Shown here piece after piece: positions 1-27,819 of a stretch of 64,000 nt of DNA. A program made the translations under genes and the position numbers. The notes under the pieces were generated by a model that saw nothing but the letters and a program-made list of their open reading frames with translations, did no database searches and was not told the origin of the DNA. Source of the DNA: Lutibacter profundi (GTDB lineage Bacteria > Bacteroidota > Bacteroidia > Flavobacteriales > Flavobacteriaceae); the NCBI RefSeq assembly GCF_001543325.1, contig NZ_CP013355.1, positions 682,001-746,000 of the forward strand. Reading direction: 5' to 3'. Position 1 is the first letter of the stretch. Each line of letters begins with the position of its first letter.

Positions 1-19
1 AACTCTAATCCCGTTGCTT
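1..19 (+). repeat. Right end of an attC-like site (cut by window edge)
   Basis: The first bases end in CTCTAATCCCGTTGCTT, closely like the right end of the site at 3993-4123 (CTCTAACCGTTGGCT). R' would be GTTGCTT at 13-19. The expected partner R'' (AAGCAAC) was not found after the next gene, so this call is tentative. Confidence 0.4.
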
Positions 20-1027
20 TTAGAACTAAATAATGATTTCTCTAAAACCCTTATTTCTAATCTCTTTTCAATCGTTTTAAAAAGCGAAAAAAAGAAACCA
101 GCTCCCAATTGGAAGTTAGTTAACGATTTTTGTAATCATATTAACCCTGAAGTTCTCTCACGCGAATGTTCAACCATACAAATTGAAAGGAAAGGTCAAA
201 TGAGAGATATGGAATTAGCATCTGACATTGAGAATTGGTACGCATACAAAACCAAAGCCCTTATGAAATTAGGGGAATGGCAAGAATGTTTTGAGAAATC
301 TAAAGAGGCTCTTGTTATATTGGAAAGCTTCCATTATTCAAATGATGTTTGGTTTTCAAGGCGGATTGCCCTTTCAAAAAAAAATTTGGGAAATACAAAA
401 GATACTATTGAAGAACTAAAACACATACTTCGTAAGAAAAAGGAGTGGTTTATTCAAAAGGAATTAGCAGAATTATATTTTGATGAGAATGATTTAGAAA
501 ATGCTTTTAAGTATGCTATTCAAGCAATTACTAATTTTGGACATTTGGAGTTTAAAGTTGATTTACTATTTCTATTAGGCAAAATTTTAAACAAGAAAGA
601 CGAAACAGATTTAGCCTTTAAGCACTTTTCTTTATCTAAACTCATAAGACAAGTTGAAGAATGGAAAATACCTCAAAAAGTATTTGATGAATTACGAAAC
701 TTTGAAAGTGTAGAAATCAATATCAATGATATAGGTAAGTTAAAATTAGAACTTAAAAAATATTGGAATGGTTTTTCTCAAGAGAAGAAGAAGTCATTTT
801 CTAATACAAAAGGGACTCAAAAAGGAGAAATTATAAGAATAATAAATGATAATGAAAGAGGAAAAGATGGCTTTTTGAAAAGTAATAACAAAGACTTCTA
901 TTTTTCGTTATCATCAAAATTTTATTTAACGGGAAAAGTTGAAATAGGTACAATAGTTGAATTTATTGTAATACCTTCAAAAGATGGAAAAAAGGAACAA
1001 ACAAGAATAAAAAAGATTATAAAATGA
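14..1027 (+). CDS. TPR-like protein with C-terminal cold-shock/S1-like domain, start uncertain
   Basis: A 337-residue reading frame, open to the left edge of the window, so the true start may lie outside. The first available start is a TTG at base 14, inside the presumed R' of an attC-like site. Residues about 65-215 are helical repeats of TPR character, with alternating aromatic and Ala positions. The last 70 residues (from GEIIRIINDN) look like a small beta-barrel of the cold-shock/S1 type, with a GKDGFL segment, which suggests nucleic-acid binding. It is the first gene of the cassette array. It is followed by 120 bp that contain an inverted repeat, then by an attC site whose R'' does not match the R' at base 13. 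Function unknown. Confidence 0.6.
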   Translation: MLLELNNDFSKTLISNLFSIVLKSEKKKPAPNWKLVNDFCNHINPEVLSRECSTIQIERKGQMRDMELASDIENWYAYKTKALMKLGEWQECFEKSKEALVILESFHYSNDVWFSRRIALSKKNLGNTKDTIEELKHILRKKKEWFIQKELAELYFDENDLENAFKYAIQAITNFGHLEFKVDLLFLLGKILNKKDETDLAFKHFSLSKLIRQVEEWKIPQKVFDELRNFESVEININDIGKLKLELKKYWNGFSQEKKKSFSNTKGTQKGEIIRIINDNERGKDGFLKSNNKDFYFSLSSKFYLTGKVEIGTIVEFIVIPSKDGKKEQTRIKKIIK

Positions 1028-1044
1028 AACCCTACGCTAAAAGC

Positions 1045-1103
1045 CATACACATTTGCAATTCGCACCAGCCAACGCTACAACCAAAAATTGCAAAAGAGT
1101 ATG
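1045..1103. repeat. Imperfect inverted repeat (17-bp arms)
   Basis: Arms CATAC-N3-TTTGCAATT (1045-1061) and AATTGCAAA-N3-GTATG (1087-1103) could form a hairpin with a 25-nt loop. The copies GCCAACGCTA near 1069 and GCCAACGCTAA near 1110 flank or lie within it. It differs from the attC sites of the array and may be a relic site or another repeat family. Confidence 0.5.
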
Positions 1104-1145
1104 TCTTTGCCAACGCTAACAGACAGACGAAAAAAAAGTACGACC

Positions 1146-1275
1146 GCACAACAAGGTGTATAAATCATTGGGCGATAAGTAGTTAAATGATAATTATAAA
1201 TATAAACTAACATAACGGTAAACTGAAAATGAAGTGCTACGAAATGCCCAACGCTTCATACACAAACCGTTAGCA
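1146..1275 (+). repeat. attC-like site 1 (type C)
   Basis: R'' GCACAAC at 1146-1152 and R' GTTAGCA at 1269-1275. The arms TGTATAAATCATTGGGC and GCCCAACGCTTCATACACA are near-complementary. Its R' is matched by TGCTAAC at 3185, across the IS481 insertion, which proves that the IS split one cassette. Confidence 0.75.
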
Positions 1276-1283
1276 CACATAAG

Positions 1284-2594
1284 GTATGATAAAGGGACAT
1301 CGTTTACAAAGTTAAAGAGACATAGTTTACACTTTTTAGGTTGTAATTTGAGAAATAAAATCAAATTATTATGCCTTGGAAAGAAACAACAACTATGGAA
1401 CAAAAAATTGAATTTATTTGTGAATGGAGAACTGGAAAATATACCATCACAGAATTATGTAAAAACTTTGAAATCTCAAGACCCACCGCCTATAAGTTAA
1501 TAAATAGGTTTGAAAAACAAGGTTTTGAAGGCTTAAAAGAGCAATCAAGAACTCCAAAGGAACATCCAAATGCGACAAAGGAAAATATTGTTGATGGGAT
1601 ACTTAAATTAAAGAAAAAACACCCACGCTGGGGAGCTAAAAAAATCAATAAACTATTGTTTAACGATTTTACAGAAAATGAGATCCCCTCGGTGGTTACT
1701 GTTCACAACATACTCAAAAGACACGGTTTAGTATGCCCTCAAAAAAGGTTAAGAAGAGTCAAACCTGTATATCCTATTTTTGATCCAAAAGTGTGTAATG
1801 AAGTATGGAGTGCAGATTACAAAGGAAAGTTTTTAATGGGTAATAAAGTGTATTGTCACCCACTGACCATTGCTGATTCCAAAAGTAGATTTTTATTCAC
1901 AGCTAAAGGACATTATAAAGAAACTTTAAAGTACGCAAAGGCTGAATTTACAAAGGTTTTTAGGAAATATGGAATCCCTAAACAACTCCACACAGACAAC
2001 GGAAGTCCCTTTGGGTCTGTTCGTGCTATTCAACGATTTACACAACTCTCCTATTGGTTTATTGAACTTGGAATTATACCCGTTTTTTCTGACCCAGCAC
2101 ACCCAGAACAAAACGGAAGACACGAACGTATGCATCGCGATTTAAAAGCGGCTTGTGCCAAACCTTCAGCCTATGACTTAAAAGCACAACAAAGACGTTT
2201 AAATCACTTTGTAAAAGAATATAATCACATAAGACCTCACGAAGCCTTAGGGATGGAAACACCTGCTTCAATGCATAACTTTTCCTCCAGACCTTTTCCT
2301 GAAAAAATACCTAACTTTGACTATAATTCAAATCTCAAAATTTTAAAAGTAACTCAAAATGGAGCAATCAGATGGAAGTCGTATTATTGGGTATATTTAA
2401 CAGCAGCTTTAAAAGGAAAATACGTAGGTATTGAAGATTTAGGTAATGGAATTTGGAAAGTCTTTTATAGAGACGTATTTTTAGGTTTCTTTAATGAAAC
2501 ACAATTAAGAAATAAAGAAAAGTCAATAAGGTTAGAAACTAATTTAGTGTAAAGTCTAATCTTTAACTTGTGTAAACTATGTATCTTAACGAAC
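1284..2594 (+). mobile_element. IS481-like element, copy 1 (1311 bp)
   Basis: Bounded by the 5-bp direct repeat ATAAG at 1279-1283 and 2595-2599. The left end starts GTATGATAAAGGGACATCG; the right end, read inward on the other strand, starts GTTCGTTAAGATACATAG, and both continue into GTTTACA and AAGTTAAAG, so the ends are imperfect inverted repeats. It carries one transposase gene. It lies 15 nt from the G of the R' GTT at 1269 and directly in front of the next cassette gene, whose ATG follows the right-hand repeat. Confidence 0.85.
1371..2552 (+). CDS. IS481-family DDE transposase, copy 1
   Basis: 393 residues from the ATG at 1371; a second ATG at 1395 would give 385. A helix-turn-helix lies at residues about 26-47 (ITELCKNFEISRPTAYKLI). 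An rve-type integrase core follows, with D149 (SADYKG), D209 (HTDNGS) and E252 (NGRHERMHR) as the likely catalytic triad. Length, single reading frame and 1.3-kb element size fit IS481. It differs from copies 2 and 3 by very few residues (GIIPVF against GITPVF, SSRPF against STRPF), so the transpositions are recent. It appears intact. Confidence 0.85.
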   Translation: MPWKETTTMEQKIEFICEWRTGKYTITELCKNFEISRPTAYKLINRFEKQGFEGLKEQSRTPKEHPNATKENIVDGILKLKKKHPRWGAKKINKLLFNDFTENEIPSVVTVHNILKRHGLVCPQKRLRRVKPVYPIFDPKVCNEVWSADYKGKFLMGNKVYCHPLTIADSKSRFLFTAKGHYKETLKYAKAEFTKVFRKYGIPKQLHTDNGSPFGSVRAIQRFTQLSYWFIELGIIPVFSDPAHPEQNGRHERMHRDLKAACAKPSAYDLKAQQRRLNHFVKEYNHIRPHEALGMETPASMHNFSSRPFPEKIPNFDYNSNLKILKVTQNGAIRWKSYYWVYLTAALKGKYVGIEDLGNGIWKVFYRDVFLGFFNETQLRNKEKSIRLETNLV

Positions 2595-2599
2595 ATAAG

Positions 2600-3175
2600 A
2601 TGAAAAAGATTATTCTGATAATATTGATAATAATTTCGAGTCTAACTTACGGACAAGAAGTTGGAGTTCAAAATCTATCTGATGCTGCAATAGAACTTAC
2701 AAGACAAAAAGTAACTTACGACCCAAGTTATTTCTCAATCAATTACCCAAACGGAGATATTCCGAGTGATAAAGGAGTTTGTACAGATGTCATAATAAGA
2801 GCTTTCCGAAAAACTGGAATTGATTTGCAAAAAGAAGTTCACGAGGATATGAAATCTAACTTTAATCTCTATCCGAAAAATTGGGGATTAAAAACAACTG
2901 ATAAAAATATTGACCATCGGAGAGTTCCTAATTTGATGAAATTCTTTGAGAGAAAAGGAACTGTAAAAGTTAAATCGACAAACCCGAGTGATTATAAACC
3001 GGGAGATATAATTTGTTGGAATTTATCGGGAGGAATTACTCACATTGGAATTGTTGTAAAAAGAAAATCATCAGATAATAAAAGATATTTGATTGTTCAC
3101 AATATCGGAGCAGGACAAGTTTTAGAGGACTGTATGTTTGATTTTAGGATTATTGGACATTATAGATACGATTGA
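2600..3175 (+). CDS. DUF1287 family secreted protein
   Basis: 191 residues from the ATG at 2600. A longer frame from 2579 would begin inside the IS481 right end and is an artefact of the insertion, since the ATG immediately follows the 5-bp target repeat. A signal peptide (MKKIILIILIIISSLTYGQ) exports it. The family signature is clear: YDPSYFSINYPNGDIPSDKG, VCTDVIIRAFR, HEDMKSNF and IDHRRVPNLM. The family resembles papain-like amidase folds, with the Cys of GVCTDV and the His of THIGIVV as candidate active residues; that role is inferred. It is the single gene of its cassette, with an attC site 10 bp after the stop. Confidence 0.85.
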   Translation: MKKIILIILIIISSLTYGQEVGVQNLSDAAIELTRQKVTYDPSYFSINYPNGDIPSDKGVCTDVIIRAFRKTGIDLQKEVHEDMKSNFNLYPKNWGLKTTDKNIDHRRVPNLMKFFERKGTVKVKSTNPSDYKPGDIICWNLSGGITHIGIVVKRKSSDNKRYLIVHNIGAGQVLEDCMFDFRIIGHYRYD

Positions 3176-3184: not shown

Positions 3185-3317
3185 TGCTAACACCTCATAA
3201 AATTTATGCTTACATTTAAACAAAATAACGAACAGACAAACATTCAACTAACGATTTGCTACAACCGAAAAATCTCCGATTTTCCAGTCGCACAAATCTT
3301 ATAAAAACTCGTTGGCT
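3185..3317 (+). repeat. attC-like site 2 (type A)
   Basis: R'' TGCTAAC (3185-3191) is the exact complement of R' GTTAGCA at 1269. R' is GTTGGCT (3311-3317). The outer arms ATAAAATTTATGC and GCACAAATCTTAT are near-complementary, and an inner hairpin AAAATC-TCC-GATTTT lies to the right of centre. Confidence 0.85.
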
Positions 3318-3992: not shown

Positions 3993-4123
3993 AGCCAACA
4001 ATGCGTAAAAAAAATTGCTTAATTCTATTAAATACTTTATTTTTCATTTCTAATTATTTTTTAATTATTAATCGGAAAATAACGGTTTTAAATCCGCAAC
4101 TTTCCTTACTCTAACCGTTGGCT
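3993..4123 (+). repeat. attC-like site 3 (type B)
   Basis: R'' AGCCAAC (3993-3999) complements R' GTTGGCT at 3311; R' GTTGGCT is at 4117-4123. The arms differ in sequence from type A (ATGCGTAAAAAAAATTGC at left, CCGCAACTTTCCTTACTC at right) but the site has the same length and architecture. Confidence 0.8.
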
Positions 4124-4750: not shown

Positions 4751-4883
4751 AGCCAACACCTCATAAAATTTATGCTTACATTTAAACTAAATAACGAACC
4801 GACAAACATTCAACTAACGATTTGCTTCAACCGAAAAATCTCCGATTTTCCAATCGCACAAATCTTATAAAAACTCGTTACCA
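4751..4883 (+). repeat. attC-like site 4 (type A)
   Basis: R'' AGCCAAC (4751-4757) complements R' GTTGGCT at 4117. R' is GTTACCA (4877-4883), matched by TGGTAAC at 5475. Confidence 0.85.
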
Positions 4884-4905
4884 CACATAAAAACTGAAAT
4901 AAATT

Positions 4906-4939
4906 TTGAATAACAATATTTTGTACTTAATTTTGTACA
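4906..4939 (+). promoter_or_regulatory. Bacteroidota-type promoter with TGTACA operator for the YefM/YoeB pair
   Basis: TTG at 4906-4908, 19 bp, then TAATTTTG at 4928-4935 fits the TTG-N19-TAnnTTTG promoter of this phylum. TTGTAC at 4921 and TGTACA at 4934-4939 lie in the same stretch. TGTACA is the core recognised by YefM-type antitoxins, so autorepression is likely (inference). This cassette therefore carries its own promoter. Confidence 0.65.
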
Positions 4940-4958
4940 TAATTAAAATTATTGAATT

Positions 4959-5210
4959 ATGATTACAACGACAATATCAGATTTCAGAAAAGATATAAAG
5001 GATTACTTTAATAGAGTTACAGAAAACTTTGAGACACTAATTATTAACCGAGGTAAAAACACGGGAGTTGTAGTGATTTCTTTAGAAGAATACAATTCTC
5101 TTATTACAACTCAACACGAAATGTCTTCAGAAAAAAATAGAGCAAGGTTAGATTCTGCAATTGAGAAATTTAAAAAAGGAGATTCTTTTAACAAAAATCT
5201 TCTTGAGTAA
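4959..5210 (+). CDS. yefM: YefM/Phd-family antitoxin
   Basis: 83 residues. The N-terminal half (MITTTISDFRKDIKDYFNRV, then GVVVISLEEYNSL) is the Phd/YefM DNA-binding and dimerisation fold. The C-terminal tail is charged and flexible, as expected for the part that wraps and neutralises a toxin. The stop codon overlaps the toxin ATG by one base (TAATG at 5208-5212), so the two genes are translationally coupled. It should repress its own promoter through TGTACA boxes upstream. Toxin-antitoxin cassettes are common in large integron arrays and are thought to stabilise them. Confidence 0.9.
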   Translation: MITTTISDFRKDIKDYFNRVTENFETLIINRGKNTGVVVISLEEYNSLITTQHEMSSEKNRARLDSAIEKFKKGDSFNKNLLE

Positions 5211-5467
5211 TGAAATATGTATTTGTAGATGAATCTTGGGATGATTATCTGTATTGGCAGAAAATTGATAAAAGAATACTAAAAAGAATAAATTTACTTC
5301 TAAAAGATATTTCCAGACAGCCTTATGATGGAATAGGAAAACCTGAGCCATTGAAACATAATTATCGAGGGTTTTGGTCGAGAAGAATTGATGGAGAGCA
5401 TAGATTAATTTATCAAGTTAGAGATGATGAAATTAGAATAATAAAATGTAGATTTCATTATGATTAA
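5210..5467 (+). CDS. yoeB: YoeB/Txe-family mRNA interferase toxin
   Basis: 85 residues, the standard YoeB length. All four residues known to matter in E. coli YoeB are present at identical numbers: E46 (KPEPL), R65 (GEHRLIY), H83 and Y84 (CRFHYD end). YoeB cleaves mRNA in the ribosomal A site and is held inactive by YefM. It overlaps the antitoxin gene by one base. The stop is 8 bp before the R'' of site 5, so antitoxin and toxin form one cassette. Confidence 0.92.
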   Translation: MKYVFVDESWDDYLYWQKIDKRILKRINLLLKDISRQPYDGIGKPEPLKHNYRGFWSRRIDGEHRLIYQVRDDEIRIIKCRFHYD

Positions 5468-5474
5468 AAACGTG

Positions 5475-5607
5475 TGGTAACACCTCATAAAATTTATGCT
5501 TAAATTTGAACTAGTACGAAATGACAAACATTTTAACAAACCGATTTGCTACAACCGAAAAATCTCCGATTTTCCAGTCGCACAAATCTTATAAAAGCCC
5601 GTTGGCA
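5475..5607 (+). repeat. attC-like site 5 (type A)
   Basis: R'' TGGTAAC (5475-5481) is the exact complement of R' GTTACCA at 4877, and does not match its own R' GTTGGCA (5601-5607). Confidence 0.88.
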
Positions 5608-5996
5608 AATATGGCGGATTATGCTCAGATTTTATAAAAGTTATTTAAAATGGAAATTTAGAAAGCCGACAAATTTCAGATTATTTTTCTAAAGTAATGA
5701 TATGAGAAATGAAACGGTCAGATTGATTTTCAGAACGCACAGATTTGAGAAATGAAACGTGAAAAACTGTTGAATTGCACAGATTTTAGAAATGAATCGC
5801 ACAAAATGAGAAATGACACGAACAGAGAAATGAATCCGATTTTATGTTCATAGCGGAGAAAACTATGATTGAAAAATTGTAACTAAACCGATAAAAATAG
5901 CAGGATTTTATTCTCATTACGCACAAACGGAGAAAAAATTGACAAAAAAATATAGAATATAAATAGGGACATATTGATATGATTAAAAACCACATT
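5608..5996. other. Gene-less cassette, first of a near-identical pair
   Basis: No convincing reading frame on either strand. The body repeats short motifs such as GAGAAATGAAACG and AGAAATGAATC at irregular spacing, and holds TCCGATTTTATGTTCA. It is nearly identical to the cassette at 6130-6499. Conservation without coding potential suggests an RNA or purely structural role, or a recent duplication. Confidence 0.6.
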
Positions 5997-6129
5997 AGCC
6001 AACAAATCATAAAATTTATGCTTAAATATGGATTTAGTACGAAATGACAAACATTTTAACAAACCGATTTGCTACAACCGAAAAATCTCCGATTTTTATG
6101 TCGCACAAATCTTATAAAAGCCGTTGCCA
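5997..6129 (+). repeat. attC-like site 6 (type A)
   Basis: R'' AGCCAAC (5997-6003) matches the complement of R' GTTGGCA at 5601 in 6 of 7 positions. R' GTTGCCA is at 6123-6129. Confidence 0.82.
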
Positions 6130-6499
6130 AATATGGCGGATTATGCTCAGATTTTATAAAAGTTCTTTAAAATAAAAATTTAGAAAGCCGACAATTTTCA
6201 GATTATTTTTCTAAAGTAATAATATGAGAAATGAAACGGTCAGATTGATTTTCAGAACGCACAGATTTGAGAATTGAAACGTAAAACTGTTGAATTGAAC
6301 AGATTTTAGAAATGAATAGCACAAAATGAGAAATGAATCCGATTTTATGTTCATTGCGGAGAAAACTATGATTGAAAAATGGTAACTAAACCGATAAAAT
6401 TGTTGGACTTCACTCCTATTTCGCACAAACGGAGAAAAAAATTGACAAAAAAGTATAGAATATAAATAGAAACATCTTGATATGATTAAAAACCACATT
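6130..6499. other. Gene-less cassette, second of a near-identical pair
   Basis: Near-copy of 5608-5996 with small deletions (one ATGAGAAATGACACGAAC block is missing) and substitutions. The minus-strand frame of up to 117 codons is not conserved in length in the first copy and looks accidental. R'' of the pair co-varies with its R' (GTTGG with CCAAC, GTTGC with GCAAC), so each behaves as a separate cassette. Confidence 0.6.
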
Positions 6500-6631
6500 A
6501 GGCAACAAATCATAAAATTTATGCTTAAATTTGAACTAGTACGAAACGACAAACATTTTAACAAACCGATTTGCTACAACCGAAAAATCTCCGATTTCTC
6601 AGTCGCACAAATCTTATAAAAGCCGTTGGCA
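6500..6631 (+). repeat. attC-like site 7 (type A)
   Basis: R'' AGGCAAC (6500-6506) matches the complement of R' GTTGCCA at 6123 in 6 of 7 positions. R' GTTGGCA is at 6625-6631. Confidence 0.82.
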
Positions 6632-6641: not shown

Positions 6642-7139
6642 ATGAAATACACACCATTTGACAAATTTATAATTGAAACGAAAAATGGAGAGCCAGAATT
6701 GACTACTCGACTTTCTGAACAAATAGAACCAAAAAAATATTTTAGGACAAATCAATATTCCTCTAATAAAGAATTAAAACCTTACGAAGGAATAATTGAG
6801 AATAATTCATTTAGAATAAATCGGATTATTAAATATCAAAATCCATTCTTACCGAGAATAACTGGAGAGTTTAAAACTCAATATGGTGGAGGCTCGAAAA
6901 TTCTTATTAAAATGAGAATTAAATATTCAATAATGATTTTTGCAGTTATTTGGTCATTTGCACCTACTCTATTTTTTTTAAGTTTCTCATCAAATTCAAC
7001 TGAAGATAAAAATATTATTCCACAAATTTTGATTAGTTTTATTTGGATTAGTATAGGTTATTTATCAACTTATCTTCCTTTTAATTATGAGAAAAAAAAA
7101 TCAAAGAAATTCTTGATTGATTTATTTAAAAATAGTTAA
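6642..7139 (+). CDS. Cassette-encoded two-helix membrane protein, unknown function
   Basis: 165 residues from the ATG at 6642, 10 nt after R' of site 7. The N-terminal 90 residues are soluble and end in a Gly-rich, basic segment (TQYGGGSKILIKMRIKY). Two hydrophobic helices follow at about 92-115 and 127-148, and the tail is Lys-rich (NYEKKKSKKF), so both ends probably face the cytoplasm. No catalytic motif is visible. Single gene of its cassette; the stop is 18 bp before R''. Confidence 0.7.
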   Translation: MKYTPFDKFIIETKNGEPELTTRLSEQIEPKKYFRTNQYSSNKELKPYEGIIENNSFRINRIIKYQNPFLPRITGEFKTQYGGGSKILIKMRIKYSIMIFAVIWSFAPTLFFLSFSSNSTEDKNIIPQILISFIWISIGYLSTYLPFNYEKKKSKKFLIDLFKNS

Positions 7140-7157
7140 GATTAATGTAAAACGATT

Positions 7158-7290
7158 TGCCAACAATGTATAAAATTTATGCTAAAATTTAAACTAAATA
7201 CAAACCGACAAACATTCAACAAACGATTTACTACGTCCGAAAAATCTCCGATTTTTAAGTCGCACAAATCTTAATACTAAACCGTTAGGC
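7158..7290 (+). repeat. attC-like site 8 (type A)
   Basis: R'' TGCCAAC (7158-7164) is the exact complement of R' GTTGGCA at 6625. R' GTTAGGC (7284-7290) fits the classical integron consensus GTTRRRY. Confidence 0.86.
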
Positions 7291-7317: not shown

Positions 7318-8466
7318 ATGAACTTACAGCAATTAAAAGAAAAAACTGAACTAATTATTTCGGATTTAAAAGACAATGGTCGTTTTCCAAAAGAAAATAA
7401 TGGAATTGATTATAAGTTGAAACTTAATATTGCAAAAACAAAAACGCCTTTAGAAAACTTCTTACTAAATTTCACAAAAGATATATTGTCTTTTTCAAAT
7501 TCAGATGGCGGAATATTACTTTTAGGAATAAATGAAGATTCTGCTTCAGGAGTTCACACAGAAACGGGTTTAGAAAAAGATAATCTTGATTTGCTAAATC
7601 AAATTGACCTAAATGATATAACCCAAAAATTTGAAAAGATAGTGAAAATAGGTATTTCTATAGATTTACAGATATTTCAAATCGGAACAAAAAAATTCTA
7701 TTATTTAATCATTGAGAAAAGTAGTCAGGTTCTAATTCCTGTAAACGATTTTCCTGAATATAAAATTACAAAAGGGTCGATATATTATCGTGCTTCAAGT
7801 AAAAATGAGCACGCAAACAAATCAACAACTGATTTCAATAGGTTTTTGCAAATAAAAGCCAATGAAAAAAGTAAAGAATTTATGGAGATTTGGTCAAAAC
7901 TTCTTCCTGAAATGGTTGATATAAATCCAAGAGAAATTTTGATTATAAATCCTGCACAACATAAGGTATATGGATTTAATAGTAAAGATAAAATTCTTTC
8001 AGGAAGTGATATTGAAATTGATGAAACTCAAAATGGAGTATTTAATATAATTTTAAATGCTATTTCAGCAGGAGAAATTGGAAAAATAACAACAGACGAA
8101 GGAAAACCAATTTATAAAATTGTTGGAGAATTTCAAACTGACAGAGAACATATAATTCTAAATAGTCTTGAACAAGAAGTCAAAAAGAAGTCAAAATTTA
8201 AATTTACTAATGTTCAACTGAAAGTAGCAATACATCATTTGGGTTGGGTTAGTAATCCTAATTTTAAAGTCGTTAATCCACCAGAAGGTACGGTTATACC
8301 ATCAAAAAGAAAATATATTTGGACTGAAACAATGGACCAAGTTTCTAATCGATCAAAAGTATATTTCTCATCAGATGCAATAGAGAAATTAGCAGAATTA
8401 ATTGATGACGAAACGAAACATACAGAATTATTTAATAAGAAATTGAGTAAGAAAGCCAGTGCCTAA
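7318..8466 (+). CDS. AlbA_2 (Schlafen-type) domain protein
   Basis: 382 residues from the ATG at 7318. Residues about 25-165 form an AlbA_2 domain, seen in NFTKDILSFSNSDGGILLLG and in YYLIIEKSSQVLIPV with the later GSIYYRASSKN. This domain binds nucleic acids and occurs in Schlafen-like regulators and some anti-phage proteins. The C-terminal part (about 275-350) resembles a winged-helix module, with FKFTNVQLKVAIHHLGWV and KRKYIWTETMDQVS. The last codons overlap the R'' of site 9 (GCCTAAC contains the TAA stop), so gene and recombination site are fused. A defence role is plausible but not shown. Confidence 0.8.
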   Translation: MNLQQLKEKTELIISDLKDNGRFPKENNGIDYKLKLNIAKTKTPLENFLLNFTKDILSFSNSDGGILLLGINEDSASGVHTETGLEKDNLDLLNQIDLNDITQKFEKIVKIGISIDLQIFQIGTKKFYYLIIEKSSQVLIPVNDFPEYKITKGSIYYRASSKNEHANKSTTDFNRFLQIKANEKSKEFMEIWSKLLPEMVDINPREILIINPAQHKVYGFNSKDKILSGSDIEIDETQNGVFNIILNAISAGEIGKITTDEGKPIYKIVGEFQTDREHIILNSLEQEVKKKSKFKFTNVQLKVAIHHLGWVSNPNFKVVNPPEGTVIPSKRKYIWTETMDQVSNRSKVYFSSDAIEKLAELIDDETKHTELFNKKLSKKASA

Positions 8467-8649
8467 CAAAGTGTAAAAATAATAAGGGTTTTAGTGCTTA
8501 ACCCAAAGTGAAGTACATTTTACAAAGTCCGCAAAATTTACAATTTTGCGTGTCTATTAAATAAAGAAAAAATTGTAAATTTGGCTAAGTGATAAACCGA
8601 AAGTTCAGCCCTTCGAAATCCCTTACTATTCTTACACAGAACGTTATAA
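8461..8649 (+). repeat. attC-like site 9 (type C, long)
   Basis: R'' GCCTAAC (8461-8467) is the exact complement of R' GTTAGGC at 7284. R' GTTATAA is at 8643-8649. At 189 bp it is the longest site; it has outer arms GTGTAAAAATAATAAGGG and CCCTTACTATTCTTACAC and an inner AAATTTACAATTTT/AAAATTGTAAATTT stem. Confidence 0.82.
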
Positions 8650-9339: not shown

Positions 9340-9466
9340 CAACTCATAAAATTTATGCTTAAATTTGAACTAGTACGAAATGACAAACATTTTAACAAAC
9401 CGATTTGCTACAACCGAAAAATCTAACGATTTCTCAGTCGCACAAATCTTATAAAAGCCGTTGCCA
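9334..9466 (+). repeat. attC-like site 10 (type A)
   Basis: R'' TTATAAC (9334-9340) is the exact complement of R' GTTATAA at 8643. R' GTTGCCA is at 9460-9466. Confidence 0.86.
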
Positions 9467-11150: not shown

Positions 11151-11232
11151 ACAAGCGGATTTCAAATCATAAGATAAATTTAACTCTGAATTTAAAATAG
11201 ATTTTGTATTTTTGATTAAAAGTAATTGATGT

Positions 11233-11783: not shown

Positions 11784-11791
11784 GAGCCAGT

Positions 11792-13155: not shown

Positions 13156-13165
13156 ACCCAACAGA

Positions 13166-15647: not shown

Positions 15648-15669
15648 ATACGATCGCTGAAAAAAGACA

Positions 15670-18803: not shown

Positions 18804-18934
18804 TGGCAACAAAGTATAAAAATAATAGCCGAAATAGTAGTAAATATGAACATTGTAGTCCGCAATAAAATTAGTAGTAAATTGAAAAATTCTACTTCCG
18901 AAATCGGCTACTATTCTTATACAAACCGTTAGCA
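18804..18934 (+). repeat. attC-like site 16 (type C)
   Basis: R'' TGGCAAC (18804-18810) is the exact complement of R' GTTGCCA at 17674. R' GTTAGCA is at 18928-18934. The arms TATAAAAATAATAGCCGA and TCGGCTACTATTCTTATA are nearly perfect. Its R' has no matching R'' downstream: the next site begins CCCCAAC. Confidence 0.86.
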
Positions 18935-18952: not shown

Positions 18953-20165
18953 CCTGAATTCAAGAACTTAACGCAACAAATCATAATCTTAGATTTGTTG
19001 TATGAAAGCAAATAAATATAAGCGACTAACATTAAAAGAACGTGTTGTAATAGAAACCTTATTACAAGAAAACAAGACCAAAAGCTATATCGCAAAAAGA
19101 CTAAATCGGTCACGTTCTACCATCACCAGAGAAGTCAATAAATGGGGTGGAGATTACAATGCAACTCTTGCAAATTGGTCTGCAAAAGACGATTATTTAA
19201 ACAAAAGAAATAAGGATAAAATAAACACCTATAATAGACTAAAAATATTCGTTTATCGAGGACTATTAAGCGGTTGGTCACCCGAACAAATTTCAGGTAG
19301 AATAAAGCTAAAATATCCAAATGACCCTGTAATGTCTATCTCTTATGAAGCCATTTATATGCATATTTACGCACATCGCCAAGCGCGTTTAAATCGTAAA
19401 TTGATAGCATTATTACCCTATCAAAAAAGCCAAAGAAGAAGAGCAAATGCTAAGAGTAAAAGAGGTGTAAAAATAAAAGATCAAACCAGTATTGATGATA
19501 GACCAAAGCACATCGAAAACAGAGAAGAAATTGGACACTGGGAAGGAGATTTAGTTATCGGAAAAGGACAGCAAAGTGCCATAGGTACTCTAGTTGAGCG
19601 AAAAGCACGATATACATTTATTGTAAAACTTAAAAGCAGAAAATCAGCAACCGTTAGAAAAGGTTTTGCTAAAGAGTTTAATCAAATAGCCCCCCTTTTT
19701 ACAAAGTCTCTAACCTACGATAATGGAATGGAAATGGCAGAGCACAAACAGTTCACAAATCACACATCAATGCCAGTATATTTTGCACATCCATATTCCT
19801 CGTGGGAGCGAGGAACCAACGAAAATACAAATGGACTCATTAGACGCTTTTTCCCAAAGGGAACTGACTTTAGTAAGGTAACCGAAAAAGAACTAAAGAT
19901 AGTGCAGGAAAAGCTAAATAATAGACCAAGAAAAGTACTCGGATATAGAACTCCAAAGGAAGTTTTTTATTCTGAAATAGTAAACCATAAAATTAAAAAT
20001 ATGATGCTAATGTAACGGCTTGTTGAACTGGAAATAACTCGACCGTAGGAAGAGTTATTCTATTTCAACAATGCACCGTTTTAAAATAAAAATTAAACTC
20101 GTATATTTGAGTAATGTTTAACCAAAATTAATAACGTTTTGTTGCGTTAGAACCTTGAATCCAAG
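18953..20165 (+). mobile_element. IS30-like element, copy 2 (1213 bp), nested in IS481 copy 3
   Basis: Flanked by AAA (18950-18952 and 20166-20168). It lies 10 bp inside the left end of IS481 copy 3. Same length and ends as copy 1 and the same encoded protein. Removing it and one AAA restores the IS481 left end seen in copies 1 and 2. Confidence 0.9.
19002..20015 (+). CDS. IS30-family transposase, copy 2
   Basis: 337 residues, identical in sequence to the protein at 11992. N-terminal helix-turn-helix followed by the D183, D240, E274 core. Intact frame. Because it disrupts the IS481 left end, the third IS481 copy is probably no longer able to transpose by itself. Confidence 0.92.
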   Translation: MKANKYKRLTLKERVVIETLLQENKTKSYIAKRLNRSRSTITREVNKWGGDYNATLANWSAKDDYLNKRNKDKINTYNRLKIFVYRGLLSGWSPEQISGRIKLKYPNDPVMSISYEAIYMHIYAHRQARLNRKLIALLPYQKSQRRRANAKSKRGVKIKDQTSIDDRPKHIENREEIGHWEGDLVIGKGQQSAIGTLVERKARYTFIVKLKSRKSATVRKGFAKEFNQIAPLFTKSLTYDNGMEMAEHKQFTNHTSMPVYFAHPYSSWERGTNENTNGLIRRFFPKGTDFSKVTEKELKIVQEKLNNRPRKVLGYRTPKEVFYSEIVNHKIKNMMLM

Positions 20166-20245
20166 AAAGGGACATCGTTTACAAAGTTAAAGAGACATAG
20201 TTTACACTTTTTAGGTTGTAATTTGAGAAATAAAATCAAATTATT

Positions 20246-21427
20246 ATGCCTTGGAAAGAAACAACAACTATGGAACAAAAAATTGAATTTATTTGTGAAT
20301 GGAGAACTGGAAAATATACCATCACAGAATTATGTAAAAACTTTGAAATCTCAAGACCCACCGCCTATAAGTTAATAAATAGGTTTGAAAAACAAGGTTT
20401 TGAAGGCTTAAAAGAGCAATCAAGAACTCCAAAGGAACATCCAAATGCGACAAAGGAAAATATTGTTGATGGGATACTTAAATTAAAGAAAAAACACCCA
20501 CGCTGGGGAGCTAAAAAAATCAATAAACTATTGTTTAACGATTTTACAGAAAATGAGATCCCCTCGGTGGTTACTGTTCACAACATACTCAAAAGACACG
20601 GTTTAGTATGCCCTCAAAAAAGGTTAAGAAGAGTCAAACCTGTATATCCTATTTTTGATCCAAAAGTGTGTAATGAAGTATGGAGTGCAGATTACAAAGG
20701 AAAGTTTTTAATGGGTAATAAAGTGTATTGTCACCCACTGACCATTGCTGATTCCAAAAGTAGATTTTTATTCACAGCTAAAGGACATTATAAAGAAACT
20801 TTAAAGTACGCAAAGGCTGAATTTACAAAGGTTTTTAGGAAATATGGAATCCCTAAACAACTCCACACAGACAACGGAAGTCCCTTTGGGTCTGTTCGTG
20901 CTATTCAACGATTTACACAACTCTCCTATTGGTTTATTGAACTTGGAATTACACCCGTTTTTTCTGACCCAGCACACCCAGAACAAAACGGAAGACACGA
21001 ACGTATGCATCGCGATTTAAAAGCGGCTTGTGCCAAACCTTCAGCCTATGACTTAAAAGCACAACAAAGACGTTTAAATCACTTTGTAAAAGAATATAAT
21101 CACATAAGACCTCACGAAGCTTTAGGGATGGAAACACCTGCTTCAATGCATAACTTTTCCACCAGACCTTTTCCTGAAAAAATACCTAACTTTGACTATA
21201 ATTCAAATCTCAAAATTTTAAAAGTAACTCAAAATGGAGCAATCAGATGGAAGTCGTATTATTGGGTATATTTAACAGCAGCTTTAAAAGGAAAATACGT
21301 AGGTATTGAAGATTTAGGTAATGGAATTTGGAAAGTCTTTTATAGAGACGTATTTTTAGGTTTCTTTAATGAAACACAATTAAGAAATAAAGAAAAGTCA
21401 ATAAGGTTAGAAACTAATTTAGTGTAA
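20246..21427 (+). CDS. IS481-family DDE transposase, copy 3
   Basis: 393 residues with D149, D209 and E252 in place and no frameshift. The gene itself is intact although the element's left terminal region is split by IS30. Its promoter would have to lie in the 80 bp between IS30 and the ATG. Confidence 0.87.
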   Translation: MPWKETTTMEQKIEFICEWRTGKYTITELCKNFEISRPTAYKLINRFEKQGFEGLKEQSRTPKEHPNATKENIVDGILKLKKKHPRWGAKKINKLLFNDFTENEIPSVVTVHNILKRHGLVCPQKRLRRVKPVYPIFDPKVCNEVWSADYKGKFLMGNKVYCHPLTIADSKSRFLFTAKGHYKETLKYAKAEFTKVFRKYGIPKQLHTDNGSPFGSVRAIQRFTQLSYWFIELGITPVFSDPAHPEQNGRHERMHRDLKAACAKPSAYDLKAQQRRLNHFVKEYNHIRPHEALGMETPASMHNFSTRPFPEKIPNFDYNSNLKILKVTQNGAIRWKSYYWVYLTAALKGKYVGIEDLGNGIWKVFYRDVFLGFFNETQLRNKEKSIRLETNLV

Positions 21428-21512
21428 AGTCTAATCTTTAACTTGTGTAAACTATGTATCTTAACGAACATACAAAATATTTGTAAGATTATAATCAGAT
21501 CAAAATTTATAA

Positions 21513-21520: not shown

Positions 21521-21559
21521 TTGCTAGAAAGAAGTTCTTTTATATAATTTTATCGTACG

Positions 21560-21735
21560 AAGAGGTTTTACTTAATTGTAGATTAATAGGGAATCTGGTG
21601 TAAATCCAGAGCTGTCGCGCAACTGTAAGTAACATTCAAAAGATTTTTATCCTAGTGTTCCACTGTTTTTAATGAAAATGGGAAGGACGATAAAAACTGT
21701 TATAAGTCAGGAGACCTGCCCTTTTCGATATGACT
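21560..21735 (+). promoter_or_regulatory. Cobalamin riboswitch controlling metE
   Basis: Two conserved blocks are plain: GGGAATCTGGTGTAAATCC with GAGCTGTCGCGCAACTGTAA (about 21590-21627), and the B12 box AAGTCAGGAGACCTGCC (21704-21720). It precedes metE, the B12-independent methionine synthase, which such riboswitches shut off when cobalamin is bound. Confidence 0.92.
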
Positions 21736-21924
21736 TTGCTTTCGCGATTTGGAGTGATTGGTCAATTTTGGTGCTATTTTTAAACAACGGGAATCTAACT
21801 TTTAGATATCCTATGTGTTTTTTTGCGCATGTCTTTTAACTCCCAATTTTATTTCTCGAAAAGCAAAAGAAGTTTTTAATAGAACTTTTAAGTAATTATT
21901 TATTCATTATTTAAAAGTAAAAAA

Positions 21925-24237
21925 ATGAAAACACACATTTTAGGCTATCCGCGAATTGGTAGCAAAAGAGAATTAAAGAAAGCCTGCGAACAGTATTGGT
22001 CAGGTAAAATTTCAACAGATGAACTAAAAAAAGTAGGAGCTGATATTAAAAACTACAATTGGAACCTTCAAAAAGAAGCAGGTATTGACTTAGTTACTAC
22101 AAACGATTTTTCGTATTACGATCAAGTTTTAGACATGACACTCACCGTTAATGCTATACCTGAAAAGTATAAAAATCTTGATTTCAAATCGGAACTAGAT
22201 TTATATTTTGCTATGGCTAGAGGACACCAAAAAAACAACATAGATGTTCCTGCAATGGAAATGACAAAGTGGTTTGATACCAACTATCATTATATTGTTC
22301 CTGAATTTAAAAAAGAGCAAAAATTTAATCTATTTTCAACAAAAGTAATCGATGAATTTCAAGAAGCTAAAAAACAAGGAATTATTACAAAACCCGTTCT
22401 TATTGGATCTGTTTCTTATTTACTATTAGGAAAAGAAAAAGAAGAAGGTTTTCATAGAATTGATTTAATAACGAATCTGTTACCAGTTTATTTTGAAATT
22501 TTAAACCAGTTAGAAAAAGCAGGTGCTGAGTGGATTCAATTTGATGAACCTTTTTTAGCTCTAGATTTAACCGATAAAGAAAAAACCGTAATAGCTGAAA
22601 CTTATACGGCTATTCAAGAAAAATTTCCAAAACTTAAAATTATCGTTGCCACCTATTTTGAAGGCTTACAAGATAACTTGAAGTTAGCAATTAACCTTCC
22701 TGTAAACACATTACATATTGACTTAGTGAGATACCCAAATCAATTACAAGAAGTGTTAGAAAATGCACCCAAAAACCTATCAATATCATTAGGTATTGTG
22801 GATGGTAGAAATGTATGGAAAAATGATTATCAGCAATCATTATCTACAATACAAAAAGCCGTAGATATGTTAGGAAAGGATAGAGTGTTAATAAGCACAA
22901 GTTGCTCTTCACTTCATGTTCCTTGTGATTTGGAAAATGAAAATAATGAAGACATATTAACTTCAGAAATAAAAAATTGGCTTGCCTTTGCAAAACAAAA
23001 GGTAAATGAAGTTGTTACTTTAAAGCAATTATTTTTAGATGATAATACGGAAAATAATAAAAAAGTAGTCGCAGAAAATCGTGAAGCTATCGAAAGCAAA
23101 AAAACATCTAGCTTAATAAATAATCCAGAAGTTAAATATAGAGTTACTACCATTTCTGATGATGATGCAAAACGAAAAAGTCCATTTTCATCTCGTAAAA
23201 TCATACAAAATAAAGCATTAAATCTCCCATTGTATCCTACTACAACTATTGGTTCTTTTCCGCAAACAAAAGAGGTCCGTTCTTGGAGAAGTAAATTTAA
23301 AAAAGAAGAAATTAGCCAAAAAGAATATGAAGACTTACTAAAAAAAGAAACGGAAAAAGCCATTCGTTGGCAAGAAGAAATTGACATTGATGTACTTGTT
23401 CACGGAGAGTTTGAACGTAATGACATGGTGGAATATTTTGGTGAAAAACTAAATGGATTTGTCTTTACAAAATTTGGTTGGGTACAAAGTTATGGTAGTA
23501 GATGTGTAAAACCCCCTATCATTTTTGGAGATATTTCACGTCCAAATCCGATGACCGTAAAATGGACAAGTTATGCACAAAGTTTAACCCCTAAATTAGT
23601 AAAAGGGATGCTCACCGGTCCTGTAACTATTTTACAGTGGAGTTTTGTAAGAAATGACCAAGAGCGTTCTGTTACTTGTAATCAAATTGCATTAGCCATA
23701 AGAGATGAAGTGAAAGACCTAGAAAATGTTGGAATTAAAATCATTCAAATTGATGAGCCCGCTATTAGAGAAGGTTTGCCATTGCGAAAATCCGATTGGC
23801 AACGCTATCTAAAATGGGCAATCAATGCTTTTAAAATATCATCTTCAGGAATTAATGATGAAACTCAAATACACACACACATGTGTTATTCTGAGTTTAA
23901 TGATATCATCCAAAATATTGCAGATATGGATGCTGATGTGATAACCATTGAATGTTCTCGTTCGCAAATGGAATTATTAGATGCTTTTGCTGATTTTAAT
24001 TACCCGAATGAAATTGGACCTGGAGTTTATGACATACACTCTCCAAGAGTTCCTAATAAAGATGAAATGGTTTTATTGCTCAACAAAGCAAAAAAAGTTA
24101 TTCCTAAAGAACTACTTTGGGTAAATCCTGATTGTGGTTTAAAAACAAGAGGTTGGGATGAAACCAAAAAAGCCTTAACCGAAATGGTAACTGCAGCTAA
24201 AACTTTAAGAGAGAAAACAGTTTCAAATACCATTTAA
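21925..24237 (+). CDS. metE: Cobalamin-independent methionine synthase MetE
   Basis: 770 residues, the usual length. The enzyme transfers methyl from methyltetrahydropteroyl-triglutamate to homocysteine in the last step of methionine synthesis, in the cytoplasm. The N-terminus LGYPRIGSKRELKKA is the family start. The second barrel contains PTTTIGSFPQT and the zinc ligands His and Cys in HTHMCYSEF and the distal Cys in VNPDCGLKTRGW. It is preceded by a cobalamin riboswitch, so it should be expressed only when B12 is short, alongside the riboswitch-controlled nrdGD. It lies between IS481 copy 3 and a thioesterase followed by an attC site. Confidence 0.96.
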   Translation: MKTHILGYPRIGSKRELKKACEQYWSGKISTDELKKVGADIKNYNWNLQKEAGIDLVTTNDFSYYDQVLDMTLTVNAIPEKYKNLDFKSELDLYFAMARGHQKNNIDVPAMEMTKWFDTNYHYIVPEFKKEQKFNLFSTKVIDEFQEAKKQGIITKPVLIGSVSYLLLGKEKEEGFHRIDLITNLLPVYFEILNQLEKAGAEWIQFDEPFLALDLTDKEKTVIAETYTAIQEKFPKLKIIVATYFEGLQDNLKLAINLPVNTLHIDLVRYPNQLQEVLENAPKNLSISLGIVDGRNVWKNDYQQSLSTIQKAVDMLGKDRVLISTSCSSLHVPCDLENENNEDILTSEIKNWLAFAKQKVNEVVTLKQLFLDDNTENNKKVVAENREAIESKKTSSLINNPEVKYRVTTISDDDAKRKSPFSSRKIIQNKALNLPLYPTTTIGSFPQTKEVRSWRSKFKKEEISQKEYEDLLKKETEKAIRWQEEIDIDVLVHGEFERNDMVEYFGEKLNGFVFTKFGWVQSYGSRCVKPPIIFGDISRPNPMTVKWTSYAQSLTPKLVKGMLTGPVTILQWSFVRNDQERSVTCNQIALAIRDEVKDLENVGIKIIQIDEPAIREGLPLRKSDWQRYLKWAINAFKISSSGINDETQIHTHMCYSEFNDIIQNIADMDADVITIECSRSQMELLDAFADFNYPNEIGPGVYDIHSPRVPNKDEMVLLLNKAKKVIPKELLWVNPDCGLKTRGWDETKKALTEMVTAAKTLREKTVSNTI

Positions 24238-24244
24238 TTAAATG

Positions 24245-24284
24245 AACCCACTTTACGAATTTTAAAATTTCAGTAAAGTGGGTT
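24245..24284 (+). terminator. Hairpin terminator after metE
   Basis: Perfect 12-bp stem AACCCACTTTAC / GTAAAGTGGGTT with a self-complementary A/T-rich loop, 8 bp after the metE stop. No clear T-run follows. Confidence 0.7.
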
Positions 24285-24306
24285 ATCATTATTAATTCAA
24301 ATAGAA

Positions 24307-24693
24307 ATGACAATACAAGAAAGAATAGAAAAGTCTGAAACAAGGTTATTTAAAGCTGTTTTTCCAAATACCACAAATCATTATGATACACTTTTTGGAG
24401 GAACTTCTTTATACCTAATGGATGAAGTTGCTTTCATTACAGCAACAAGATTTAGTAGGCAAAAAATGGTCACAGTAAGTAGTAACAAAATAGACTTTAC
24501 CAAGCCCATACCTGCTGGCACAATAATAGAACTTGTTGGTAAAGTATCGCATATCGGAAATACAAGCCTAAGAGTAGAAGTTAATATTTACATAGAACAA
24601 ATGTATAGTTACAAAAAAGAACACGCTATTTGTGGAGAGTTTACTTTTGTGGCTATTAATGATAAAAAAGAACCTATGAAAATTATGAGATAA
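24307..24693 (+). CDS. Acyl-CoA thioesterase (YciA-like hotdog fold)
   Basis: 128 residues, one hotdog domain. NHYDTLFGGTSLYLMDEVAF carries the conserved Asn-His..Gly-Gly and the catalytic acid, and VTVSSNKIDFTKPIPAGT is the second family segment. Such enzymes hydrolyse acyl-CoA esters in the cytoplasm; chain-length preference cannot be read. It has a separate leader from metE, after a terminator. An attC site begins 10 bp after its stop, so it is, or was, a cassette gene; the R' that should pair with its R'' CCCCAAC is absent. Confidence 0.85.
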   Translation: MTIQERIEKSETRLFKAVFPNTTNHYDTLFGGTSLYLMDEVAFITATRFSRQKMVTVSSNKIDFTKPIPAGTIIELVGKVSHIGNTSLRVEVNIYIEQMYSYKKEHAICGEFTFVAINDKKEPMKIMR

Positions 24694-24702: not shown

Positions 24703-24837
24703 CCCCAACAATGTATAAAATTTATGCTCACATTTAAACTAAATAACGAACCGACAAACATTTTAACAAACCGATTTGCTACAACCGAAAAATCTCCGAT
24801 TTTCCAGTCGCACAAATCTTATAAAAACTCGTTGTGG
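24703..24837 (+). repeat. attC-like site 17 (type A), unpaired R''
   Basis: R'' CCCCAAC (24703-24709) does not match the preceding R' GTTAGCA at 18928. R' GTTGTGG (24831-24837) does match CCACAAC at 26971. The break coincides with IS481 copy 3 and its mismatched flanks. Confidence 0.84.
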
Positions 24838-26970: not shown

Positions 26971-27085
26971 CCACAACACCTCATAAAATTTATGCTTACA
27001 TTTGAACTAAATAACGAAACGACAAACATTGGACTACCTAGTAAATTTGGTACAATTTGAGTTCTAAAATAGAATAAAGTTGCCA
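26971..27085 (+). repeat. attC-like site 18, right arm replaced
   Basis: R'' CCACAAC (26971-26977) is the exact complement of R' GTTGTGG at 24831. The left half is type A up to 27030; then the normal continuation is replaced by GGACTACCTAGTAAATTT and following bases up to a candidate R' GTTGCCA (27079-27085). Confidence 0.65.
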
Positions 27086-27149
27086 GAATATTATGCAGTT
27101 GGAGTTTAAAGCTAAAACGCAGAAAGATTGATAATTAAATAAAAAAGAA

Positions 27150-27290
27150 ATGAAAAAAAGAAACTTAATGATTATTGGAATAATATTAGCATCATTAATT
27201 ATTTCAACATTTGTATATTCTTTTGGTAAAAAGATTGGAAAATCATTACACCATTATCAAAATGATTTTGAGAAAGTTCAAGTAGAATAA
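27150..27290 (+). CDS. Small single-helix membrane protein (46 aa)
   Basis: A 46-codon frame: basic start (MKKRNLMIIG), one hydrophobic helix to about residue 25, then a basic-acidic tail ending FEKVQVE. The shape resembles a signal-anchored small membrane protein. It begins 64 nt after the candidate R' at 27079, a reasonable leader within a degenerate cassette. No homology claim is possible from sequence reading alone. Confidence 0.5.
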   Translation: MKKRNLMIIGIILASLIISTFVYSFGKKIGKSLHHYQNDFEKVQVE

Positions 27291-27488
27291 ATTCCCTACA
27301 CAATTTTGAGCATTAAATCAGTTTAATTTTATCAAAATAACGGAGAAATAAGATATACGAAATGAATAATTGTAACAAAGCTGAGAATATTTCTGAGTTT
27401 TTCTATCATAACGGATAGAAATCGAAACCGATATATTTTTAGCAATTTAAATAGAGAAATTAAAAACCGATAAATAACAGATACTATC

Positions 27489-27593
27489 ATGGCAAAAGGT
27501 AAAGATTCAAGGAAAAACGTGAAAAAAGAAGCTGCTAAAACTCCTAAAGAAAAAAAAGCAGAAAAAAAACTGAAAAAAGCTAGAAAAGATTAA
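27489..27593 (+). CDS. Small Lys/Ala-rich basic protein (34 aa)
   Basis: A 34-codon frame beginning MAKGKDSRKNVKKEAAK and ending KKLKKARKD. Composition is dominated by Lys, Ala and Glu. Short MAKGKDsrK-type proteins like this occur widely in flavobacteria; function unknown. A start with plausible leader is present. It shares a degenerate cassette with the 46-residue gene upstream. Confidence 0.55.
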   Translation: MAKGKDSRKNVKKEAAKTPKEKKAEKKLKKARKD

Positions 27594-27691
27594 TTATAAC
27601 TTAACTGAAAACATTTTCGAATTTTCCTATCATAATGGATAGAAAATAGAAAACGGATAGATTTTTAGAATATGGATAGAAAGCCACTAAA

Positions 27692-27819
27692 TTGCAGCAA
27701 TGCGTATAAAAATAGCTCATCTCTAACTAAATATGATATTTAATACAAATAAAAAACTTATTTTTAAACTGGACTACCTAGTAAATTTTGCACAATTTTA
27801 TCAGGTAGTCCAGTTGCAG
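27692..27819 (+). repeat. Degenerate attC-like site 19 with GGACTACCT hairpin
   Basis: The left end TTGCAGCAATGCGTATAAAAA resembles type B sites, but R'' is TTGCAGC (5 of 7 against the expected TGGCAAC). The right part holds a perfect 12-bp inverted repeat ACTGGACTACCT / AGGTAGTCCAGT (27768-27779, 27803-27814), then GTTGCAG at 27813. The GGACTACCTAGTAAATTT core is the same as in site 18. Confidence 0.5.

Follow-up and report, generated by a model that had tools for sequence, protein, structure and literature searches.

A stretch of 64,000 nucleotides (nt) from the chromosome of Lutibacter profundi (hereafter the window; positions 682001-746000 of a single 2.97-Mb contig) begins with a row of short genes separated by palindromic sites, and it raises the question whether this bacterium carries an integron and, if so, which recombinase moves its cassettes. 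Surveys recognise integrons by an IntI integrase with its additional domain and by clusters of attC sites. Our answer, to which we would assign a probability of about 85%, is that the window holds the distal third of a chromosomal integron-like array of ~100 kb whose tyrosine recombinase does not belong to the IntI family. A preliminary description, made from the letters of the window, had proposed an integron-type cassette array of 27 kb. The length has to be corrected, as only the last third lies in the window and the array begins ~73 kb upstream on the same chromosome. The name is borne out by the pairing of cassette ends, an attI-like junction, a recombinase at the head of the array, the predicted folding of the bottom strand and the differing first cassettes, and needs qualification in that the recombinase is not a classical IntI.

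Pairing of cassette ends and extent of the array

Each cassette opens with the right arm of the preceding site (R') and closes with the left arm of the following one (R''). Seventeen complete attC-like sites and a truncated one were placed between 1146 and 26977 of the window, slightly fewer than the 19 or so first counted. The two ends of a cassette are complementary at 7/7 positions in 14 of the 17 cassettes and at 6/7 in two others, the same numbers as in the preliminary description, and one cassette fails; the pairing runs over 9-10 nt in 13/17. Scored over four variable positions, cross-pairing reached 63/68, while 100,000 permuted pairings had a mean of 30.6 (standard deviation [sd] 4.2) and a maximum of 50. 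Within one site R'' and R' pair at chance level (27/68), which agrees with the earlier remark that they usually do not match; site 2, whose R'' pairs 7/7 with its own R', is an exception. The pairing also spans insertion sequences (ISs), and both examples that had been given for this (1269 with 3185, 11918 with 14199) are correct. The features of the window are as follows, with open reading frames abbreviated as ORFs and amino acids as aa.

1146-1275, plus: attC-like site 1 (R'' GCACAAC, R' GTTAGCA); R'' pairs over 9 nt with an R' 4.5 kb upstream, outside the window
1290-2600 (ends approximate), plus: IS481-like insertion inside a cassette, ~21 nt past the crossover, with a 393-aa transposase ORF at 1371-2552
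3185-3317, plus: attC-like site 2; R'' pairs over 10 nt with R' at 1269, across the IS
3993-4123, plus: attC-like site 3; R'' pairs over 10 nt with R' at 3311
4751-4883, plus: attC-like site 4; R'' pairs over 10 nt with R' at 4117
4877-5481, plus: cassette with a YefM/YoeB toxin-antitoxin pair
5475-5607, plus: attC-like site 5; R'' pairs over 10 nt with R' at 4877
5997-6129, plus: attC-like site 6, end of a cassette lacking any plus-strand ORF of 60 aa; pairing 6/7
6500-6631, plus: attC-like site 7, end of a sister cassette (88% identical) with concerted differences in its two arms (GTTGCC vs GTTGGC); pairing 6/7
7158-7290, plus: attC-like site 8; R'' pairs over 9 nt with R' at 6625
8461-8649, plus: attC-like site 9, a long form of 189 nt; R'' pairs over 9 nt with R' at 7284
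9334-9466, plus: attC-like site 10; R'' pairs over 10 nt with R' at 8643
11019-11150, plus: attC-like site 11; R'' pairs over 10 nt with R' at 9460
11144-11798, plus: cassette with a ParE-like toxin and a small ORF upstream
11792-11924, plus: attC-like site 12; R'' pairs over 9 nt with R' at 11144
11943-13157 (ends approximate), plus: IS30-like insertion (named by look) inside a cassette, ~25 nt past the crossover, with a 337-aa transposase
14199-14328, plus: attC-like site 13; R'' pairs over 10 nt with R' at 11918, across the IS
14343-15655 (ends approximate), plus: second window copy of the IS481-like insertion
15781-16854, plus: Fic-family protein (SoFic-like), sharing a cassette with the second IS481-like copy
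16862-16993, plus: attC-like site 14; R'' pairs over 10 nt with R' at 14322
17548-17680, plus: attC-like site 15; R'' pairs over 10 nt with R' at 16987
18804-18934, plus: attC-like site 16; R'' pairs over 8 nt with R' at 17674
18953-21470 (ends approximate), plus: IS30-like and IS481-like insertions past site 16
21546-24237, plus: cobalamin riboswitch and metE; a 4HBT thioesterase comes next (24307-24693); start of the cassette not located
24703-24837, plus: attC-like site 17, broken junction; R'' has no partner R' upstream
26971-27036, plus: attC-like site 18, truncated with its right part lost, the last clearly recognisable site of the array; R'' pairs over 10 nt with R' at 24831

A motif, GGACTACCTAGTAAATTT, occurs in two copies at this end (window 27031-27072 and 27771-27814), the second followed by its inverse AGGTAGTCC, and by eye it truncates the last site. 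The copies are probably a decayed insertion element that marks the right end of the array.

Searching the genome with one site returned 62 candidates, of which 40 were scored; 37 lay at 610-707 kb on the plus strand and three elsewhere. With all complete window sites as queries we obtained 60 sites with an R' end and 58 with R'' located. Across the array, cassette ends pair at 7/7 in 42/58 cases, at 6/7 in 7/58 and lower in 9/58, with runs of at least 9 nt in 40. The cross-pairing score over the seven positions after GTT was 337/406, compared with 164 in shuffles (sd 10, maximum 198 of 5,000) and 164 for own-site pairing. In four of the nine weak gaps the arms alone revealed an unrecognised site at normal spacing, which brings the placed sites to 62 for ~65 cassettes. 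A covariance model matched the genome 69 times at E 0.01; among the matches listed, 618694-618817 is one of the four sites predicted by the arms and was absent from the training set, and 648514-648637 has its R'' where the arm rule predicts it in a fifth weak gap. The longest ORF, counted by script in 65 cassettes, lies on the plus strand in 52 and on the minus strand in four, and nine have no ORF of 60 aa; the count cuts ORFs that run into the site, and the first cassette, which it scored empty, contains a 328-aa ORF.

Ordinary dispersed intergenic repeats, which involve no recombination, would fit the identity of up to 97-98% between sites of one family and the few sites found outside the array. 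However, the two arms of a cassette co-vary independently of the site body, and their cross-pairing lies far above every permutation, in the window as in the whole array. A cassette common to another genome stands there at another place with both arms changed in concert, and long chains of paired ends are found in about half of the 20 relatives tested. In the genome of L. profundi the repeats are concentrated in the array and not scattered, as the preliminary description had considered they might be (37/40 scored sites inside, three strays), yet other genomes of the family do show scattered hits of the site model. We find dispersed repeats hardly credible, and an array with complementary R''/R' cassette ends, as in integrons, is what the locus contains.

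The recombinase and its junction

The statement that no integrase is present holds for the window, but an integrase-like gene stands at the head of the array, outside it: a 397-aa tyrosine recombinase (genome 608003-609196), co-oriented with the array. The preliminary description had advised looking for a tyrosine recombinase with the IntI-specific patch; the recombinase was found and the patch is absent. Strict membership among IntI integrons fails because this additional domain is missing, which a survey of integrons in archaea lists among the characteristics that define IntIs (PMC9668308). The spacing between the R..E and HxxR boxes is 89 in the L. profundi protein and 88-90 in all 73 rows assigned to the new group, and 131 in 25/27 IntI rows (in L132 it is 87 or 131 depending on the box chosen, and L125 gave none). 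The IntI profile matched the recombinase in two stretches with 198.5 bits (cut-off 265), skipping positions 178-238, and the profile search detected no IntI over the cut-off in this genome. The best curated match was the XerA-type model NF040815, with 212.5 bits below its cut-off of 220; XerD (178.2 vs 329.6 bits) and XerC (176.6 vs 335.15) fell short of theirs, which by this measure leaves the protein outside both families. Fifty-two aligned recombinase rows are invariant at the residues that we take to be catalytic. The protein has an extra N-terminal domain that is tentatively HARP-like. In a tree, which is unrooted and includes 22 IntI rows from one phylum only, the IntI rows fall on one side of a branch (100/100) and all new recombinases sampled fall outside.

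Could the recombinase be a true IntI that has lost its additional domain, and the array an ordinary integron with a degenerate integrase? The profile match in two stretches would suit such a history, and so would the likeness between arrays of the two kinds, long R arms having been seen in an IntI array too. Against it stand the branch that splits off the IntI rows with no new recombinase inside, the uniform box spacing with no intermediate, and a top curated match that is of XerA type and not IntI. We consider a degenerate IntI unlikely, and it is the last of the alternatives that we would set aside.

The first junction of the array lies 33 nt past the recombinase stop codon and pairs 10/10 with the first R'', so that an attI-like feature with the crossover G^TT is present beside the gene; the crossover base was inferred from the boundary between conserved and variable positions and from the cassette pairing. 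Sixty recombinase loci were taken, in 57 of which the end with the stop codon is visible. Of these 57, 48 have the junction motif ATATA[AG][CA]..GTT within 420 nt downstream of the stop or ahead of the contig end, with 2.2 expected from shuffles; by eye the one in L050 seems accidental, and a junction-like site in L087, TTATAACGA followed by GTTG, escapes the motif definition. In 47 distinct alignable junction windows, position +10 is always A and position +11 is T in 42, and positions +4 to +8 carry 0.2-0.6 bits. The 10-nt arms that follow the motif are distinct in 44/48 loci, and the R'' arm closing the first cassette (9-10 nt) was found in 24 distinct loci (two sets of 12). First cassettes hence vary between related genomes (these are not several strains of one species), contrary to the absence of variation that the preliminary description had regarded as telling against an array of this kind.

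A gene with an HU-HIG DNA-binding domain adjoins the recombinase (L038:7233-7634, minus strand). By eye, a similar minus-strand gene seems to lie 3' of the recombinase in some loci that have no clear junction (L049, L050, L075), and it may encode an accessory factor.

Predicted site folding and strand polarity

The bottom strand of the circular form is predicted to fold as a hairpin with an R stem, an unequal spacer and an L stem. In 60 sites (59 distinct) from eight genomes, 96.6% of the cells of the 13-pair L stem are paired and 10/13 pairs show double changes; covariation is 0.575, whereas shuffles give 0.160 and slid versions no more than 0.156. Two L-stem pairs are nearly always G·T on the bottom strand (50/59 and 57/59 distinct rows). 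As to extrahelical L-box bases, most aligned sites show no clear bulge and have these two near-fixed pairs, and a few have an extra base. Both prediction and covariation accord with hairpin attC sites that have an L box, an unpaired spacer and bottom-strand polarity.

The R arms show the same polarity. Among 172 cassettes from ten arrays, 165 R-arm mismatches are G·T on the bottom strand, three are G·T on the top strand and 127 are of other kinds, and the bottom strand is the more stable one in 168/172; cassettes from other genomes were selected by exact 8-nt arms (at least 7/8 in L. profundi), which leaves only the positions beyond unbiased. The one IntI array measured had one G·T on the bottom and four on the top strand, with the bottom strand more stable in 2/10. 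Since the R-arm wobbles fall on the bottom strand, they point to recombination of that strand.

These data bear on the alternative that a Xer-like reaction takes place on double-stranded DNA at short GTT cores, the hairpins being by-products such as terminators. The resemblance of the recombinase to XerA and XerC/D would agree with it. Nevertheless, the L stem covaries across genomes and the wobble mismatches lie on one strand, and a terminator or a double-stranded site requires neither such a bias nor the pairing of cassette ends hundreds of bases apart. We regard this reaction as improbable, more so than a degenerate integrase.

The reading that we prefer, an integron-like array served by a recombinase outside IntI, suggests the following course. 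A cassette would circularise, bringing its R'' end beside its own R' start. The bottom strand of the circle would fold with ~10 paired R-arm bases, a lopsided spacer and the 13-pair L stem, and the conserved G·T wobbles would mark it as the bottom strand. The recombinase at the head, its N-terminal domain possibly taking part in recognition of the site, would then join G^TT of this single-stranded substrate to ATATAACNNG^TT, the junction that directly follows its own gene. New cassettes would enter at the head and push older ones away.

Relatives, cassette contents and known systems

The recombinase is present in 31/38 genomes of the genus (E 1e-60) and 74/299 of the family (E 1e-100), and a profile of its N-terminal domain matched 181/298 family and 54/114 class genomes. 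Relatives that have both the recombinase and the ATATAACNNGTT junction occur across Flavobacteriaceae, many of them with arrays. In 20-kb stretches downstream of the recombinase from 20 family genomes, the longest chains of exact 9-nt arms had 18, 14, 13, 12, 11, 9, 9, 8, 5 and 4 members in ten genomes; of eight IntI regions, L195 had a chain of 11 and the other seven had chains of 1-3. The site model hit 275/298 family genomes at E 0.01 and 36/114 class genomes at E 0.001, mostly with one to few weak hits, and lone weak hits may be false. The N-terminal domain was found in 178/275 site-positive and 3/23 site-negative family genomes (Fisher p 1.4e-6, phylogeny not controlled; counts taken from lists, with three unlisted negatives assigned by elimination). 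Where site and domain hits are listed on one contig, 21/28 genomes have a site within 60 kb of the domain, and within that distance 40/41 site hits lie downstream of the recombinase in array orientation; these linkage counts rest on the best-scoring rows listed.

The array might also have been built in trans by a classical IntI that was later lost, while the neighbouring recombinase does other work, such as integration of a mobile element. Clusters of attC sites without an integrase (CALIN) are reported as widespread (PMC8618304); sites in many genomes with no detected recombinase, and the loci that lack the junction motif (9/57), would fit as well. Yet IntI reached the curated cut-off in 0/249 Flavobacteriaceae genomes, in a search that gave no match in its own controls and for which the phylum-wide search, with 107/392 genomes (loci L113-L142), serves as the positive control; among the IntI matches listed, one genome (G367) belongs to the host class and the others lie outside it. 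The junction directly downstream of most recombinase genes and the orientation of the nearby sites likewise speak against a lost integrase, which we rank between the two preceding alternatives.

As to cargo, a Pfam scan of 72 cassette proteins (excluding proteins spanning two stretches and the 393- and 337-aa transposases) identified ParE-like toxins in five, and single cases of YoeB, Phd/YefM antitoxin, PemK, Fic, AIPR, GmrSD, an immunity protein and others, among the families listed (the best 25 of 64). The PADLOC matches listed (25 of 43) include a type IIG restriction enzyme, AbiU, SoFic, HEC-05 and type I specificity subunits. Relatives differ in their cassette content, as seen in the distinct first-cassette arms and in a cassette shared at another place. 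This two-gene cassette is number 38 in the L. profundi array and the second in the Lutibacter record L052; its proteins of 77 and 110 aa are 87 and 92% identical, and its arms are GTTGTAAAAT/ATTTTACAAC in the former and GTTGTACAAT/ATTGTACAAC in the latter. Sister cassettes within the array, 88-90% identical, similarly have GTTGGC..GCCAAC and GTTGCC..GGCAAC. Such concerted changes could arise if mismatches in the folded site were repaired, which is only an idea.

Nine IS481-like transposases of 393 aa (99.5-100% identical) and three identical IS30-like ones of 337 aa are found in the array. The IS481-like ORF starts 102-103 nt past the crossover in 6/9 copies (cassettes 10, 19, 34, 44, 49 and 61; window 1269-1371 and 14322-14424), and the IS30-like ORF starts 74 nt past it in 3/3 (cassettes 6, 60 and 64). 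By these offsets both families seem to insert ~21-25 nt inside cassettes beside the site, as though targeting it. Cassettes ~380-450 nt long that have no plus-strand ORF of 60 aa occur in two or three near-identical copies each (groups 8, 53, 26, 54; 17, 28, 32; 24, 25, 42; window 5601-6506 corresponds to 53 and 54); they might encode RNA or serve as spacers. Two single cassettes lie outside the array, with arms of 10 and 9 nt that are ~860 and ~570 nt apart, and are possible off-site insertions; one further stray site has no partner arm (stray-site loci: L045 ~7593-7714, L043 ~8090-8215 and L044 ~7133-7258). Because the R'' of the site that follows has no partner, the housekeeping-type operon of metE and thioesterase with its cobalamin riboswitch (21546-24693) may be a captured cassette or may have arrived with the ISs. 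A second cobalamin riboswitch (window 31372-31571, minus) lies upstream of minus-strand ORFs at 30806-31264 and 28923-30809, which by eye resemble an anaerobic ribonucleotide reductase pair.

Several observations weigh against our reading. In the window the junction from site 16 to site 17 fails, with two ISs and metE in between. In the whole array, five of the nine weak gaps are incompletely explained, the 6/7 pair of site 36 (one of seven such pairs), with its run of 4, is probably due to chance, and there are a few sites beyond the bounds of the array. Sites within the array show poor pairing with their own R', and for that reason excision would need a weaker R box. The junction motif is absent in 9/57 recombinase loci, and in 11 loci (including L061 and L072) the motif is present and the sequence long enough, yet no R'' matches; many others end too soon. 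Ten of the 20 relatives have chains of only 1-3, while shuffles give 0-3. Many genomes contain sites and no detected recombinase, since site hits (275/298) outnumber those of the N-terminal domain (181). Finally, pairing alone cannot single out the new recombinase, because long R'/R'' pairing also occurs in the IntI-type array L195 and in the literature.

On a wider scale, we suggest with somewhat less than even confidence that Bacteroidia possess a second integron system, which evolved separately. Its Xer-like recombinase would have gained a HARP-like domain that binds DNA structure in place of the IntI patch and would read folded bottom-strand sites by their G·T wobbles, with arrays across Flavobacteriaceae and other families that are hidden from IntI-based surveys. 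The tree is compatible with each of three candidate origins: a pre-IntI relative, a separate invention and a derived form. A limited check of open-licence papers, which did not extend to subscription journals and preprints, found no account of a cassette array whose recombinase is without the IntI domain. If the system operates as read here, the literature searched has no name yet for a large network through which a common class of bacteria, marine and other, exchanges cassettes, and the IntI domain is not essential to integron-type recombination. The origin of integrons from Xer-type recombinases, and the discrimination of a folded strand from its complement, could then be tested with a second natural solution, and the cassettes (toxin-antitoxin pairs, restriction systems, defence-like genes) would be a searchable pool.

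Among known systems, XerA, XerC and XerD (NF040815, PDB 4a8e, 5hxy) differ from the new recombinase, which has the extra N-terminal domain and is linked to a cassette array; its box spacing of 88-90 compares with 96 in most XerC/D rows. In comparison with IntI4 of Vibrio cholerae (PDB 2a3v), the sequence match is lost at chain residues 181-247, a stretch in which the match to the IntI profile is interrupted as well. An IntI-based search would probably label the Lutibacter locus a CALIN element, but the conserved recombinase and the attI-like junction at the array head set it apart from CALIN, even though it has no strict IntI. Sedentary chromosomal IntI integrons, such as those of the Vibrio type, share with it a recombinase gene beside an attI-like junction, a long co-oriented array, pairing cassette ends, folded sites with R and L boxes and a lopsided spacer, and toxin-antitoxin cargo. 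Unlike them, the Lutibacter array has a recombinase without the IntI additional domain and with an extra N-terminal domain, encoded by a gene that points towards the array, and its sites carry near-fixed G·T pairs in the R arm and L stem, mostly with no clear extrahelical base.

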